Source: an uncultured Candidatus Cenarchaeum sp.
GTDB lineage: Archaea > Thermoproteota > Nitrososphaeria > Nitrososphaerales > Nitrosopumilaceae
Reading direction: 5' to 3'
DNA: 64,000 nt
Assembly: GCA_958295735.1 (NCBI GenBank)
Contig: OY282369.1
Location: 1,968,161-2,032,160 of the forward strand
A model generated the notes under the pieces. That model was not told the DNA's origin, searched no databases, and worked only from the letters and a program-made list of their open reading frames with translations. A program made the translations under genes and the position numbers. Below are positions 48,263 to 55,314 of this stretch, one piece after another (the first letter of the stretch is position 1; each line of letters opens with the position of its first letter).

Positions 48263-48284
48263 GCCCCGCCGGGGGCCCGGCCCT

Positions 48285-48292
48285 CAATAAAG
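48285..48292 (-). promoter_or_regulatory. TATA box of the meaB operon
   Basis: Minus-strand CTTTATTG centred ~27 nt before ATG 48262. Confidence 0.6.
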
Positions 48293-48483
48293 CCTTGCAG
48301 CGCGGGGGGGCCCTCGGCCGGCCGCCCCGCGGCCCGCGCGCCGGGCGCGGGGGCGCGGCACGCGGGACCGCGCTCCCCCGCCGCCCGGTCGGGATTCCCC
48401 GCGGCGCGGATCCGGGCCGCCTGCGCGATGCGCCGGGAGGGCCCGGATCGGCGCGGCCGGCCGGGGCGGTTCTGCCGGAAAAA

Positions 48484-49233
48484 TCACGGCTTTCGGGCGC
48501 CGCCGCCCGGCCCCGCGCCCGTCCCGCCGGCGGCCGGCCCGGACGCCCGGCGCCGCCCGCCCGGCCCCGCGCCGCGCGCGGCGGCATCCGGCGGGGGCAT
48601 CTTCCTCGCGTGGGCCTGGGCGGGGGTCTCCCTCTTCGACCAGTCCAGCGACATGTGCGGCCGGTCGTTGTTGTACCAGTCCACGAACCTCTCCACCGGA
48701 TCGCGCGGCCTGGCCGTGCAGAACGGCCCGCCCATGTGCGCATCGCCCCCGCCGGGTGATGCCTTCGTCGCGATGCCGCAGGAGGCCGCCACGAAGATCG
48801 GCAGCTTGCGCTGCAGCTCCCCGTAGAACCTCCCCAGCTTGCCGTTCGTCTGCGGGTGGCCCGCGCGCGCGAGGCGGTGCGAGATGCCGAGCTGGACGAG
48901 CTTTTTCTCAAAGGCGGCGCTCCCGCGGATGCGCGGCTCTTCGCTTGCGTAGAACTGGCTGCCGTGATCGGTCAGGACGGATGCCGGCTTTCCGTGCCTG
49001 GAAACGGCGCTTTCTAGCACGGAAGCGGCGTTTTCGGCCGTGGCGCGGTCGAAGACGCCGTGCCCCACGATGAGGCGGGACGCGTCGTCCTGGTAGGCGA
49101 CGAGCCACCTGCCGTCGTCCAGCAGCTTGTAGTCGGCGTGCCACATGGAGTTGGAATACGCCCTCTCGTACCTGACCCATTTTCGCCTCCCGGGATTTTC
49201 GGGCCGCCTTTCGGGTGATCCCGCCTCCGGCAA
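48484..49233 (-). CDS. Truncated rve integrase (IS481-like) with altered catalytic Glu
   Basis: 249 residues. The RNase-H-like core starts almost at once: NSMWHADYKLLDDGRWLVAY (first Asp), SVLTDHGSQFYASEEPRIRG (second Asp), then HPQTNGKLGRFYGELQRKLP, where the family has NGKLER and the Glu is catalytic; here it is Gly. The end contains FVDWYNNDRPHMSLDWSKRE, TPAQAHARKM and a Gly/Ala-rich tail. The usual N-terminal HTH domains are missing, though a minus-strand GRPFMTPEGIAHLEG peptide at about 49540-49600 may be a remnant of the linker. A TATA-like AATATATC lies 26 nt before TTG 49233, so the shortened gene may be expressed, but probably not as an active transposase. Confidence 0.75.
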   Translation of the reverse strand: MPEAGSPERRPENPGRRKWVRYERAYSNSMWHADYKLLDDGRWLVAYQDDASRLIVGHGVFDRATAENAASVLESAVSRHGKPASVLTDHGSQFYASEEPRIRGSAAFEKKLVQLGISHRLARAGHPQTNGKLGRFYGELQRKLPIFVAASCGIATKASPGGGDAHMGGPFCTARPRDPVERFVDWYNNDRPHMSLDWSKRETPAQAHARKMPPPDAAARGAGPGGRRRASGPAAGGTGAGPGGGARKP

Positions 49234-49255
49234 CGCGGGATGCGCGATGCGCCGC

Positions 49256-49264
49256 GATATATTG
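49256..49264 (-). promoter_or_regulatory. TATA-like box before the truncated integrase
   Basis: Minus-strand CAATATATC is centred 26-27 nt before TTG 49233. Confidence 0.5.
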
Positions 49265-49860
49265 ATTCCATCCCCCCGCAGTTCCGCGCAGCAGGGCGCG
49301 GGCGGCGGCAGGCCGCCCCCCGATCCCGCGCCCGGATCGCGACGGGCGGGGCGAACCGCGCCGCACGGAAGCCGCGCCGCCCGCCCGCGTCCTCCTCCGT
49401 CCGGCGCGGGCCGTTCTTCTCGATCGACCCCGCGGCCTTACCGGCCGGGCATGCCCCGGGCGGGGCCTCCCCGCCGCCGATGCCAAGCGGGCGGCGGGGC
49501 CGCCGCCCGCCGCGGAACGCGACGAATTCCGGCGGGCCCTCGAGGTGCGCGATCCCCTCCGGGGTCATGAACGGCCTCCCCGGCCTGCCGCAGGCCGCGG
49601 GCGGCGGGGCCGCCGCCCGCCGGATCAACGCCGCGCTCCGGCATGTGTCCCTCCCGGGCACGGCGGGCCGCCGCGATCCCCCCGCCCTGATCCACGGGGC
49701 CGTCCAAGACGTCATGCGCCCCTCGTGCGCCGCCTTGCCGCGTCATTGATCTGCCTGCCGGCCGGGAAGTCGGCCATCCGCTTTGCGGCTGGCGCAACTT
49801 GGAAAAACCGCCCGCCTAAAGTTAGTGCGACCTAATTTTCATACACGCATGCGGGGCGAA
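49265..49860. other. Region without a supported gene, possible decayed transposase 5' part
   Basis: GC-rich, no convincing protein. A block GCGGGCGGCGGGGCCGCCGC recurs near 49490 and 49600. One short minus-strand peptide resembles a transposase linker. AT content rises after 49790 ahead of the binding-protein promoter. Confidence 0.45.
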
Positions 49861-49865
49861 CCAAA

Positions 49866-49875
49866 ATCTTTAAGA
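49866..49875 (+). promoter_or_regulatory. TATA box of the four-domain binding protein
   Basis: AATCTTTAAGAA, centred ~27 nt before GTG 49898. Confidence 0.65.
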
Positions 49876-49897
49876 ATAGCATGTTGAAGCGCTCGGC

Positions 49898-52800
49898 GTG
49901 GCAGCAGGCAACAAAAAACTCATTTACATTGGCGCGATCGTGGCGGCGGCAGCTGCTGTAGGCATCGCCGTAGCCGCCGTCTCCATGACGGATCCCGCAG
50001 CCGAGACTCCGCCTGATGTGCCATTTACCCCCGATGCCGACGATGCGGCAACGGAAACGGCGACCCCGACAAGCCTTGTGGGAGACGTGATGATCGGCCT
50101 CATCCTCCCGCTCACCGGCGACCTCTCCTCGCACGGCGAGGAGAACCACGAGGGCTCAAAGCTCGCCGTGGATGACTTTAACGCGTACCTGGAGGAGCAG
50201 GGCGAGGAGTGGCGCCTCGTGATGACCTCGGAGGACTCGGCCACGAGCCCGGCCGTCGCGCTTGAAAAACTCACCTCGCTCAACGCGAAGGGCATCGGGG
50301 TCGTGGTGGGCCCCGAGACCAGCTCCAACATACGCAACATCAAGGGGTATGCCGACGCCAACAACATGCTGCTGGTCAGCTGCTGCTCCACGGCGCCGTC
50401 CCTCGCGGTGGCCGACGACAGCGTGTACCGCCTCGTCCCCGACGACAGCAACCAGGGCACCGCGGTGGCCAAACTGTTGCGCGAGGACGGCATTGAAATG
50501 TACGTCCCAGTATGGAGGGCCGACGCTTGGGGCGAGGGCCTCATAGCCTCCACCAGGGCCTCGTTCGAGGACCGCGGCGGCCAGTCCGTGGAAGGCTTCG
50601 CGTACGATCCCGAGGCGCCCGAGTTCTCGGCGGCCGCCTCGTTGCTGGCCGCAGAAGTGGAAGAGCATGTCGAAGAGTTCGGCGCGGACAAGGTGGCCGT
50701 CCACATGGTCGGCTTCGCCGAGACCGTCCAGCTGATGCAGTCCGCCTCCAACCACGACGTTCTGGACGACGTGGCCTGGTACGGCTCCGACGGCAGCGTA
50801 AAGGAGGACCGCATCGTGTCAGACGCCATAGGCTCCGAGTTCGCCAGCACCGTGCACTTTACGGCCATGCAGCCGGGCTCGCCCTCCAACCCGACGTACG
50901 CCCGCGTCGAGGCGCACGTGCAGGACGTCCTGGGAAGGTCGCCCAGCACGTACGTGCACACCTCGTACGATGCGGTCTGGCTCGTCGGGCTCGCGATGAT
51001 GGAAGCGGGAAGCTCCGACGTCGATGCCATAAAGGAGGTCATGCACGGCGTGGCCGACGAGTACGTGGGCGCCACGGGCGACATAAAGCTGAACGAGGCG
51101 GGGGACCTGGCGTCGGCCGACTATGAGATCTGGGCCGTCGAGGACGGCGAGTGGGCGAGGATGGGCACGTACTTCCTGGCCACCGACGAGCTGGATCTCG
51201 AGCCGCCCATGGAAGAAGGCATGATGGAAGAAGGCATGATGGAAGAAGGCATGATGGAAGAAGGCATGATGGACGGGACCATGATGTCCGGCGACGTCCG
51301 GATCGGCCTCATCCTCCCGCTCACCGGCGACCTCTCCTCGCACGGCGAGGAGAACCACGAGGGCTCAAAGCTCGCCGTGGATGACTTTAACGCGTACCTG
51401 GAGGAGCAGGGCGAGGAGTGGCGCCTCGTGATGACCTCGGAGGACTCGGCCACGAGCCCGGCCGTCGCGCTTGAAAAACTCACCTCGCTCAACGCGAAGG
51501 GCATCGGGGTCGTGGTGGGCCCCGAGACCAGCTCCAACATACGCAACATCAAGGGGTATGCCGACGCCAACAACATGCTGCTGGTCAGCTGCTGCTCCAC
51601 GGCGCCGTCCCTCGCGGTGGCCGACGACAGCGTGTACCGCCTCGTCCCCGACGACAGCAACCAGGGCACCGCGGTGGCCAAACTGCTGCGCGAGGACGGC
51701 ATTGAAATGTACGTCCCAGTATGGAGGGCCGACGCCTGGGGCGAGGGCCTCATAGCCTCCACCAGGGCCTCGTTCGAGGACCGCGGCGGCCAGTCCGTGG
51801 AAGGCTTCGCGTACGATCCCGAGGCGCCCGAGTTCTCGGCGGCCGCCTCGCTGCTGGCCGCAGAAGTGGAAGAGCATGTCGAAGAGTTCGGCGCGGACAA
51901 GGTGGCCGTCCACATGGTCGGCTTCGCCGAGACCGTCCAGCTGATGCAGTCCGCCTCCAACCACGACGTTCTGGACGACGTGGCCTGGTACGGCTCCGAC
52001 GGCAGCGTAAAGGAGGACCGCATCGTGTCAGACGCCATAGGCTCCGAGTTCGCCAGCACCGTGCACTTTACGGCCATGCAGCCGGGCTCGCCCTCCAACC
52101 CGACGTACGCCCGCGTCGAGGCGCACGTGCAGGACGTCCTGGGAAGGTCGCCCAGCACGTACGTGCACACCTCGTACGATGCGGTCTGGCTCGTCGGGCT
52201 CGCGATGATGGAAGCGGGAAGCTCCGACGTCGATGCCATAAAGGAGGTCATGCACGGCGTGGCCGACGAGTACGTGGGCGCCACGGGCGACATAAAGCTG
52301 AACGAGGCGGGGGACCTGGCGTCTGCCGACTATGAGATCTGGGCCGTCGAGGACGGCGAGTGGGCGAGGATGGGCACGTACTTCCTGGCCACCGACGAGC
52401 TGGATCTCGAGCCGCCCATGGAAGAAGGCATGATGGAAGAAGGCATGATGGAAGAAGGCATGATGGAAGAAGGCATGATGGAAGAAGGCATGATGGAAGA
52501 AGGCATGATGGAAGAAGGCATGATGGAAGAAGGCATGATGGAAGAAGGCATGATGGAAGAAGGCATGATGGAAGAAGGCATGATGGAAGAAGGCATGATG
52601 GAAGAAGGCATGATGGAAGAAGGCATGATGGAAGAAGGCATGATGGACGGGACCATGATGTCCGGCGACGTCCGGATCGGCCTCATCCTCCCGCTCACCG
52701 GCGACCTCTCCTCGCACGGCGAGGAGAACCACGAGGGCTCAAAGCTCGCCGTGGATGACTTTAACGCGTACCTGGAGGAGCAGGGCGAGGAGTGGCGCCT

Positions 52801-54952
52801 CGTGATGACCTCGGAGGACTCGGCCACGAGCCCGGCCGTCGCGCTTGAAAAACTCACCTCGCTCAACGCGAAGGGCATCGGGGTCGTGGTGGGCCCCGAG
52901 ACCAGCTCCAACATACGCAACATCAAGGGGTATGCCGATGCCAACAACATGCTGCTGGTCAGCTGCTGCTCCACGGCGCCGTCCCTCGCGGTGGCCGACG
53001 ACAGCGTGTACCGCCTCGTCCCCGACGACAGCAACCAGGGCACCGCGGTGGCCAAACTGTTGCGCGAGGACGGCATTGAAATGTACGTCCCAGTATGGAG
53101 GGCCGACGCCTGGGGCGAGGGCCTCATAGCCTCCACCAGGGCCTCGTTCGAGGACCGCGGCGGCCAGTCCGTGGAAGGCTTCGCGTACGATCCCGAGGCG
53201 CCCGAGTTCTCGGCGGCCGCCTCGCTGCTGGCGGCCGAGGTCAACCGGCAGGTGAGGGAGTTCGGCGCGGACAAGGTGGCCGTCCACATGGTCGGCTTCG
53301 CCGAGACCGTCCAGCTGATGCAGTCCGCCTCCAACCACGACGTTCTGGACGACGTGGCCTGGTACGGCTCCGACGGCAGCGTAAAGGAGGACCGCATCGT
53401 GTCAGACGCCATAGGCTCCGAGTTCGCCAGCACCGTGCACTTTACGGCCATGCAGCCGGGCTCGCCCTCCAACCCGACGTACGCCCGCGTCGAGGCGCAC
53501 GTGCAGGACGTCCTGGGAAGGTCGCCCAGCACGTACGTGCACACCTCGTACGATGCGGTCTGGCTCGTCGGGCTCGCGATGATGGAAGCGGGAAGCTCCG
53601 ACGTCGATGCCATAAAGGAGGTCATGCACGGCGTGGCCGACGAGTACGTGGGCGCCACGGGCGACATAAAGCTGAACGAGGCGGGGGACCTGGCGTCTGC
53701 CGACTATGAGATCTGGGCCGTCGAGGACGGCGAGTGGGCGAGGATGGGCACGTACTTCCTGGCCACCGACGAGCTGGATCTCGAGCCGCCCATGGAAGAA
53801 GGCATGATGGACGGGACCATGATGTCCGGCGACGTCCGGATCGGCCTCATCCTCCCGCTCACCGGCGACCTCTCCTCGCACGGCGAGGAGAACCACGAGG
53901 GCTCAAAGCTCGCCGTGGATGACTTTAACGCGTACCTGGAGGAGCAGGGCGAGGAGTGGCGCCTCGTGATGACCTCGGAGGACTCGGCCACGAGCCCGGC
54001 CGTCGCGCTTGAAAAACTCACCTCGCTCAACGCGAAGGGCATCGGGGTCGTGGTGGGCCCCGAGACCAGCTCCAACATACGCAACATCAAGGGGTATGCC
54101 GACGCCAACAACATGCTGCTGGTCAGCTGCTGCTCCACGGCGCCGTCCCTCGCGGTGGCCGACGACAGCGTGTACCGCCTCGTCCCCGACGACAGCAACC
54201 AGGGCACCGCGGTGGCCAAACTGTTGCGCGAGGACGGCATTGAAATGTACGTCCCAGTATGGAGGGCCGACGCCTGGGGCGAGGGCCTCATAGCCTCCAC
54301 CAGGGCCTCGTTCGAGGACCGCGGCGGCCAGTCCGTGGAAGGCTTCGCGTACGATCCCGAGGCGCCCGAGTTCTCGGCGGCCGCCTCGTTGCTGGCCGCA
54401 GAAGTGGAAGAGCATGTCGAAGAGTTCGGCGCGGACAAGGTGGCCGTCCACATGGTCGGCTTCGCCGAGACCGTCCAGCTGATGCAGTCCGCCTCCAACC
54501 ACGACGTTCTGGACGACGTGGCCTGGTACGGCTCCGACGGCAGCGTAAAGGAGGACCGCATCGTGTCAGACGCCATAGGCTCCGAGTTCGCCAGCACCGT
54601 GCACTTTACGGCCATGCAGCCGGGCTCGCCCTCCAACCCGACGTACGCCCGCGTCGAGGCGCACGTGCAGGACGTCCTGGGAAGGTCGCCCAGCACGTAC
54701 GTGCACACCTCGTACGATGCGGTCTGGCTCGTCGGGCTCGCGATGATGGAAGCGGGAAGCTCCGACGTCGATGCCATAAAGGAGGTCATGCACGGCGTGG
54801 CCGACGAGTACGTGGGCGCCACGGGCGACATAAAGCTGAACGAGGCGGGGGACCTGGCGTCTGCCGACTATGAGATCTGGGCCGTCGAGGACGGCGAGTG
54901 GGCGAGGATGGGCACGTACTTCCTGGCCACCGACGAGCTCGACCTGTCTTGA
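49898..54952 (+). CDS. Membrane-anchored protein with four tandem ABC-type substrate-binding domains
   Basis: 1684 residues. Residues ~5-27 (KKLIYIGAIVAAAAAVGIAV) form an N-terminal signal anchor; no lipobox. Four nearly identical ~370-residue type I periplasmic-binding (Peripla_BP_6, amino-acid/amide/urea type) domains start near residues 63, 465, 923 and 1311; each runs from IGLILPLTGDLSSHGEENHE to MGTYFLATDELDL and contains GVVVGPETSSNIRNIKGYAD and CCSTAPSLAVADDSVYRLVP. Linkers of MEEGM occur 4, 15 and 1 times, each closed by MDGTMMSGD. Such proteins normally have one domain (~400 aa). Domain 3 differs at NRQVREFGADK versus EEHVEEFGADK. No transporter permease or ATPase is adjacent. Assembly collapse or expansion of the repeats is a risk. 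Confidence 0.9.
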   Translation: MAAGNKKLIYIGAIVAAAAAVGIAVAAVSMTDPAAETPPDVPFTPDADDAATETATPTSLVGDVMIGLILPLTGDLSSHGEENHEGSKLAVDDFNAYLEEQGEEWRLVMTSEDSATSPAVALEKLTSLNAKGIGVVVGPETSSNIRNIKGYADANNMLLVSCCSTAPSLAVADDSVYRLVPDDSNQGTAVAKLLREDGIEMYVPVWRADAWGEGLIASTRASFEDRGGQSVEGFAYDPEAPEFSAAASLLAAEVEEHVEEFGADKVAVHMVGFAETVQLMQSASNHDVLDDVAWYGSDGSVKEDRIVSDAIGSEFASTVHFTAMQPGSPSNPTYARVEAHVQDVLGRSPSTYVHTSYDAVWLVGLAMMEAGSSDVDAIKEVMHGVADEYVGATGDIKLNEAGDLASADYEIWAVEDGEWARMGTYFLATDELDLEPPMEEGMMEEGMMEEGMMEEGMMDGTMMSGDVRIGLILPLTGDLSSHGEENHEGSKLAVDDFNAYLEEQGEEWRLVMTSEDSATSPAVALEKLTSLNAKGIGVVVGPETSSNIRNIKGYADANNMLLVSCCSTAPSLAVADDSVYRLVPDDSNQGTAVAKLLREDGIEMYVPVWRADAWGEGLIASTRASFEDRGGQSVEGFAYDPEAPEFSAAASLLAAEVEEHVEEFGADKVAVHMVGFAETVQLMQSASNHDVLDDVAWYGSDGSVKEDRIVSDAIGSEFASTVHFTAMQPGSPSNPTYARVEAHVQDVLGRSPSTYVHTSYDAVWLVGLAMMEAGSSDVDAIKEVMHGVADEYVGATGDIKLNEAGDLASADYEIWAVEDGEWARMGTYFLATDELDLEPPMEEGMMEEGMMEEGMMEEGMMEEGMMEEGMMEEGMMEEGMMEEGMMEEGMMEEGMMEEGMMEEGMMEEGMMEEGMMDGTMMSGDVRIGLILPLTGDLSSHGEENHEGSKLAVDDFNAYLEEQGEEWRLVMTSEDSATSPAVALEKLTSLNAKGIGVVVGPETSSNIRNIKGYADANNMLLVSCCSTAPSLAVADDSVYRLVPDDSNQGTAVAKLLREDGIEMYVPVWRADAWGEGLIASTRASFEDRGGQSVEGFAYDPEAPEFSAAASLLAAEVNRQVREFGADKVAVHMVGFAETVQLMQSASNHDVLDDVAWYGSDGSVKEDRIVSDAIGSEFASTVHFTAMQPGSPSNPTYARVEAHVQDVLGRSPSTYVHTSYDAVWLVGLAMMEAGSSDVDAIKEVMHGVADEYVGATGDIKLNEAGDLASADYEIWAVEDGEWARMGTYFLATDELDLEPPMEEGMMDGTMMSGDVRIGLILPLTGDLSSHGEENHEGSKLAVDDFNAYLEEQGEEWRLVMTSEDSATSPAVALEKLTSLNAKGIGVVVGPETSSNIRNIKGYADANNMLLVSCCSTAPSLAVADDSVYRLVPDDSNQGTAVAKLLREDGIEMYVPVWRADAWGEGLIASTRASFEDRGGQSVEGFAYDPEAPEFSAAASLLAAEVEEHVEEFGADKVAVHMVGFAETVQLMQSASNHDVLDDVAWYGSDGSVKEDRIVSDAIGSEFASTVHFTAMQPGSPSNPTYARVEAHVQDVLGRSPSTYVHTSYDAVWLVGLAMMEAGSSDVDAIKEVMHGVADEYVGATGDIKLNEAGDLASADYEIWAVEDGEWARMGTYFLATDELDLS
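51208..51282. repeat. 15-bp MEEGM repeat, linker 1 (4 copies)
   Basis: Four copies of ATGGAAGAAGGCATG, followed by the ATGGACGGGACCATGATG spacer that ends every linker. Confidence 0.93.
52418..52644. repeat. 15-bp MEEGM repeat, linker 2 (15 copies)
   Basis: Fifteen perfect copies of ATGGAAGAAGGCATG. Linker 3 (about 53791-53805) has a single copy, so the linkers differ only in repeat number. Confidence 0.93.
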
Positions 54953-55314
54953 TCGGGCGCGCCCGATACCGCAACTGATTCGCCGCCGGCATCCCGCAAT
55001 GCGTGCCTGCCGGCCGGCGGGGCGCCGCATCTGCGCGACTGCCTGCACGCGCGCGTGAGGTGAACGGCACTTCTGCCTGCCCCCGCCGCGCGGTGCGCGA
55101 GATCAGCACCCCCGCTTCGCAGGCGCGAATGCGGATCAACGGAGTCGTTTTCACGCCTGTGGCCAGCAGGTGCGTGACCTCGTACCGCGCGACTCCGCAG
55201 GCAGTAGCGGCGGCGGCAGGCTAGCCCCCCGCGCGCCTGCTTCCTGCCGGCTCCGCGCTCCCGGAGGCGCGCCGCTCCGGCTCCGCGCCGGGATCGCGGG
55301 GGCCCCCCGCGCGC
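54953..55314. other. Intergenic region with hairpin copy E
   Basis: Contains family-2 hairpin copy E and a CGGCTCCGCG duplicated block near 55247 and 55275. No gene recognised. Confidence 0.5.
55107..55197 (+). repeat. Dispersed hairpin repeat family 2, copy E
   Basis: ACCCCCGCTTCGCAGGCGCG, GATCAACGGAGTCGTTTTCA, CGCCTG, CAGCAGGTGCGTGACCTCGT. Arms GGCGCGAA and TTCACGCC pair with one mismatch. Confidence 0.8.

Follow-up and report, generated by a model that had tools for sequence, protein, structure and literature searches.

A gene for four near-identical LivK-type binding domains in tandem in a Candidatus Cenarchaeum genome

Within the window, i.e., the 64,000-nucleotide stretch of DNA analyzed here, lies a gene for four LivK-type binding domains (Table 1). 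Its reading frame opens with a GTG start codon and runs for 1,684 codons with no internal stop, and Pfam places four stretches each of PF01094 (ANF_receptor) and PF13458 (Peripla_BP_6) in it (E values of 3.4e-112 and 5.4e-136). The frame stops one codon past the fourth domain, and permeases are encoded at other loci. A hydrophobic stretch preceded by KK is the only N-terminal anchor. The translation contains no lipobox Cys at this anchor, and a similar hydrophobic N-terminus is present in single-domain homologues. The protein has a calculated mass of 180.1 kDa and a pI of 4.1. The window belongs to a 3.17-Mb single-contig genome, and the label of ammonia oxidizer holds because this genome encodes archaeal AmoA. 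The initial annotation had described a single gene with four nearly identical substrate-binding domains, one membrane anchor, flexible linkers and a product of ~180 kDa in an ammonia oxidizer, all of which agrees with the present results, in which the linkers look flexible. Upstream of the gene, an AT-rich island holds a TATA-like candidate element and, at positions 49820 to 49835, the palindrome TTAGTGCGACCTAA, a possible regulator site.

Table 1. Features of the four-domain gene and its surroundings (window coordinates)
Feature	Position	Strand	Details and basis
Segment missing from C. symbiosum	48263..55314	.	7.1 kb; gene-order comparison
Truncated IS481-type transposase	48484..49233	-	Pfam rve; NCBIfam IS481 model positions 106-243 of 284, under cut-off
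Candidate TATA-like element	49868..49874	+	CTTTAAG; AT-rich island ~25-30 nt 5' of start codon; predicted from sequence
Four-domain LivK-type binding-protein gene	49898..54952	+	1,684 aa; open-frame reading and Pfam
N-terminal hydrophobic anchor	49919..49987	+	Residues ~8-30, KK before it; translation read
Binding domain 1	50075..51199	+	tblastn 100%; AlphaFold2 and structure matches
Linker 1	51200..51283	+	28 aa, four MEEGM units
Binding domain 2	51284..52408	+	tblastn
Linker 2	52409..52657	+	83 aa, fifteen MEEGM units
Binding domain 3	52658..53782	+	tblastn; divergent nine-codon patch at 53231-53257
Linker 3	53783..53821	+	13 aa, one MEEGM unit; sequence read
Binding domain 4	53822..54946	+	tblastn

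The four domain copies, whose repeated DNA begins at positions 50081, 51290, 52664 and 53828, are 98 to 99.8% identical (2 to 21 differences per 1,105 nucleotides in ungapped comparison). Only 20 codons vary among them, mostly synonymously, and the amino acid changes are limited to one M/R exchange at the edge of domain 1 and four exchanges in a patch of copy 3. In this patch, nine successive codons (190 to 198) are changed, synonymous ones included. It resembles what gene conversion by a diverged sequence would leave behind; a second occurrence within 3 mismatches was not found anywhere in the genome. Each linker consists of EPP, a run of MEEGM units and MDGTM, which at the DNA level corresponds to 15-bp repeat arrays at 51209 to 51273 (4.3 units) and 52418 to 52647 (15.3 units) and to a single unit before copy 4. 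The repeat does not occur in the genome outside this gene. The linkers are rich in methionine and glutamate and look disordered; ELDLEPPMEEGMM is an example of a peptide that spans a domain-linker junction.

The nearest relative in the comparison set (G001) belongs to the same genus and is, we assume, the sponge symbiont Cenarchaeum symbiosum A. Its gene order at this site reads PPDK-like, HTH, small gene, methylmalonyl-CoA mutase, MeaB, small open reading frame (ORF) and M1 aminopeptidase, the small ORF following MeaB after only ~16 bp, and the last three genes are also contiguous in two further genomes of the family (L189 and L190). In the window, the segment missing from C. symbiosum parts meaB from the small ORF beside the M1 aminopeptidase gene. 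The four-domain gene and the shortened transposase are all that was recognized in this segment, and arrival by transposition is suggested; clear element ends were not found around the insert when each flank was searched for repeats on its own. As C. symbiosum encodes a single-domain LivK 3.1 kb past its M1 gene, albeit one just 44% identical, the wider neighborhood has a livK in both species. A virus origin of the four-domain gene was also considered, and a scan of viral contigs gave no relative.

Pfam, NCBIfam and PDB sequence searches all placed the domain with the Leu/Ile/Val (LIV)-binding proteins, which are also its closest solved relatives by sequence score. A single domain was modeled by AlphaFold2 with a pLDDT of 95.3 as a two-lobed type I binding-protein fold, whose best Foldseek matches (3td9, 4n0q with leucine, and 4gnr; TM scores of 0.78 to 0.82) include a Thermotoga LivK, a LivJ and a homologue from Brucella with leucine bound. 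The cleft positions of LIVBP for the α-amino acid are S79, T102, Y150, Y202 and E226. Among 55 aligned sequences, the counterparts of S79 (S83) and Y202 (F214) are kept in all, that of Y150 (W152) is W or Y in all, and that of T102 (T106) is T or S in 53. E226 aligns with D239 in the window domain and with G in 13 of the 55 relatives. By sequence and model, the domain is of the LivK type, the binding component of LIV-type ABC importers; its ligand is probably an amino acid or a comparable small compound. The NCBIfam LivK-type model scores the domain at 62.6 against a curated cut-off of 477, and the LivH-type permease of the genome scores higher as UrtB than as LivH, with both scores under their cut-offs. 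Urea specificity is conceivable but was not adopted, as UrtA structures fit the domain model worse than LivK and LivJ do and all urea models fall below the NCBIfam cut-off. E. coli LivJ and LivK (LIVBP and LBP) have the fold, the family and, in kind, most cleft positions in common with the window domain. However, they consist of one soluble periplasmic domain, whereas the window protein is an anchored four-domain chain.

The genome encodes one complete livHMGF set (L090:8737-13511), 1.3 Mb from the four-domain gene, and this set includes its sole LivH/LivM permease pair. The genes follow the usual order livM-livH-livG-livF in the same divergent layout as in relatives, and no binding-protein gene was found at its normal position beside them. 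In at least seven relatives (G018, G006, G001, G192, G068, G061 and G113), homologues that are 43 to 62% identical to the window domain adjoin livF, livG, livH and livM. Across 250 genomes of the family, the presence of the domain and of PF02653 (the LivH/LivM permease family) agrees in 239: 34 encode both and 205 neither, while 6 and 5 encode only one of them (Fisher P = 1.8e-30, uncorrected for relatedness). Incomplete genomes may lie behind some of the 11 exceptions. LivH and LivM of the window genome are 75 to 79% identical to those beside the two-domain homologue of G018. The C. symbiosum liv set is just 52 to 57% identical to that of G018, and the liv sets of the two genomes of this genus may thus differ in history.

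Genes with several LivK domains have been reported previously. In Candidatus Nitrosospongia ianthellae, Moeller et al. (2019, PMC6790972) described three livK domains that follow one another in a single gene, next to a livK that is expressed. The same study counted four copies of livK for C. symbiosum and named livFGHMK as characteristic of the sponge-associated members (PMC6790972). Comparisons of sponge Thaumarchaeota found the transporter enriched, and LivK multiplied, in other sponge symbionts (PMC7848895, 2021; PMC6697440, 2019). Besides the window gene, our search for multidomain homologues recovered about 12 two-domain and two three-domain genes among relatives, with occurrences in several other Nitrosopumilaceae. 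The statement in the initial annotation, that no described equivalent was known in ammonia oxidizers, is therefore wrong.

Like the window gene, the gene of Ca. N. ianthellae (IBTHAUMO2; L091 and L142) belongs to a sponge-associated ammonia-oxidizing archaeon and strings together, within a single ORF, several LivK domains of the same domain family. However, its three domains are 42 to 46% identical and adjoin livHMGF and a single-domain livK, whereas the four domains of the window gene are 98 to 99% identical, lie away from the operon and are joined by long repeat linkers. The two-domain genes of Nitrosopumilaceae (G018, 894 amino acids and adjoining livFGHM; G015, G258 and G259, which are Cenarchaeum sp. 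SB-type bins) likewise have tandem domains behind a single N-terminus but, unlike the window gene, have short linkers and 41 to 63% domain identity, the range found within the other clear multidomain genes of LivK type. In a quick tree with SH-aLRT support, in which many deep forks are unsettled, first domains cluster with first and second with second in the better-sampled groups, and all window domains fall into a single tight clade. By this sequence comparison, the two- and three-domain genes are apparently old fusions and the window array a recent, separate multiplication. New in the window gene are the number of four copies, their near identity, the expandable linkers and the separation from the operon; the gene is real and unusual, yet it is the extreme of a kind already described. 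Other LivK loci were found in disrupted form. In Nitrosopumilus sp. H13, two LivK-domain runs with frameshifts lie beside livF and livG (L092:5660-11599) and represent either a pair of multidomain genes misassembled in places or copies in decay. A single-contig genome also has LivK copies interrupted by frame breaks or a stop (L076:5058-7302; G006:C1:1119166-1120286), suggesting birth and loss of copies.

Owing to the LIV-type fold and sequence, the co-occurrence with liv genes and the L090 set without a binding protein, we read the four-domain gene as the displaced binding protein of the sole importer. The distance of 1.3 Mb to livHMGF and the low NCBIfam scores speak against this reading. 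It is probable, in our view, that it encodes the LivK of the cell's single LivHMGF importer, tandemly multiplied to four, and that the anchored chain binds one ligand and passes it to LivHM. The computed support covers the identity and fold of the domain, its recent multiplication, the cross-genome link to livHMGF, the livK-less operon and the insertion site. The N-terminal helix would keep the chain at the membrane's outer surface. All four domains would share one ligand, probably of the amino acid kind, and each would dock on LivHM. Provided that the protein is made and kept intact, one anchor could supply four binding sites and thereby increase the capture of a scarce ligand; the increase in local capture that the initial annotation proposed is thus reasonable. 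The bridging of several transporters, as initially proposed, is weakened by the single LivH/LivM permease pair, which would allow bridging only between copies of one transporter.

As in GlnPQ-type importers, multiple binding domains in the window chain share a polypeptide with flexible linkers and would supply one importer. The binding domains of GlnPQ are of a different fold class from the LivK type. They form one polypeptide with the permease and are not alike in specificity, whereas the window chain is separate from its permease and its copies are nearly identical. The tandem domains of GlnPQ work independently, and longer linkers cut the transport rate (PMC8025302). As longer linkers slow delivery in that system, the 83-residue linker need not help; it argues for reach over speed, or else linker length is not under selection. 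A highly speculative extension, to which we attach very little probability, is that the MEEGM arrays are length-variable, possibly Cu(I)-binding (Mets-type) tethers and the chain an antenna for multivalent capture that can expand: repeat slippage would alter how far it extends through the S-layer space, and tandem recombination how many sites it has.

Copies that are this similar in DNA are the classic setting for repeat errors, and the assembler could have duplicated one domain or miscounted the copies. However, each copy has private variants, the linkers differ in their number of units, the copy-3 patch is unique, all junctions are in frame in a genome assembled as a single contig, and two- and three-domain relatives exist. 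An assembler would have had to invent the differences and keep all junctions in frame, and the array was therefore judged from the assembled sequence to be real; an artifact is very unlikely, although the count of copies or of repeat units may not be exact. Cleavage of the chain in its disordered, Glu/Met-rich linkers into separate binding proteins, with fusion merely raising the dose, is also unlikely. While domain 1 alone would remain anchored in that case, the linkers contain no known protease site, domains 2 to 4 have no second anchor or signal, and the older two- and three-domain genes have retained both fusion and domain order over long times.

A role as a sensor, adhesin or surface structure instead of in transport would be in line with the many large surface proteins of this genome that carry a divergent version of the domain. 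The genome has 47 matches to the domain, many in frames of 1,100 to 7,600 amino acids and some with NHL, Big_12 or HYR domains. The window domain is nevertheless closer to livHMGF-linked LivK (56 to 62% identical) than to these proteins (25 to 38%). As the protein also has no signaling domain and the livHMGF link is strong, we regard such a role as quite unlikely. The possibility that deserves more weight, though we still doubt it, is that the protein serves the importer in a fourfold state that is neutral or transient, i.e., a tandem expansion that is recent and brings no gain in function, which would be compatible with our main reading of the domain. The near-identical copies and the slippage-type linker arrays point in this direction, but multidomain LivK genes are spread over several lineages, where their domains group separately and the old copies are kept intact.

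LivHMGF has been reported as enriched in sponge-associated ammonia-oxidizing archaea (PMC7848895) and is a main argument for their mixotrophy. The repeated multiplication of its binding domain in separate lineages, extreme in the window genome, suggests that adaptation has acted on ligand capture more than once. Of most interest in the present gene are how alike its four copies are, the Met-rich linkers with their capacity to expand and the lost operon linkage. Several short-read contigs terminate inside a LivK domain (L127, L129 and L148); arrays of near-identical copies may be underreported in short-read assemblies, and the four-domain array warns of such undercounting.

Divergent relatives of the domain are widespread elsewhere in the window genome, where dozens of large surface-type ORFs (~1,100 to 7,600 amino acids; L024 to L039 and other sites in G000) carry, close to their C-terminus, a domain of the type I binding-protein class. 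The giant ORFs that were fully read have the common tail ...LxLPxLxxGxxSxPARQTITNxG...QTVTYxVNC, and relatives of the IS481-type transposase lie near several of these proteins (L024, L027, L030 and L032). C. symbiosum has just four matches to the domain, all single-domain. Two further four-domain arrays are present in the genome (L022:2763-9857, minus strand; L026:4582-9555, plus strand), and because their domains are strongly diverged, these arrays appear to be old rather than recent.
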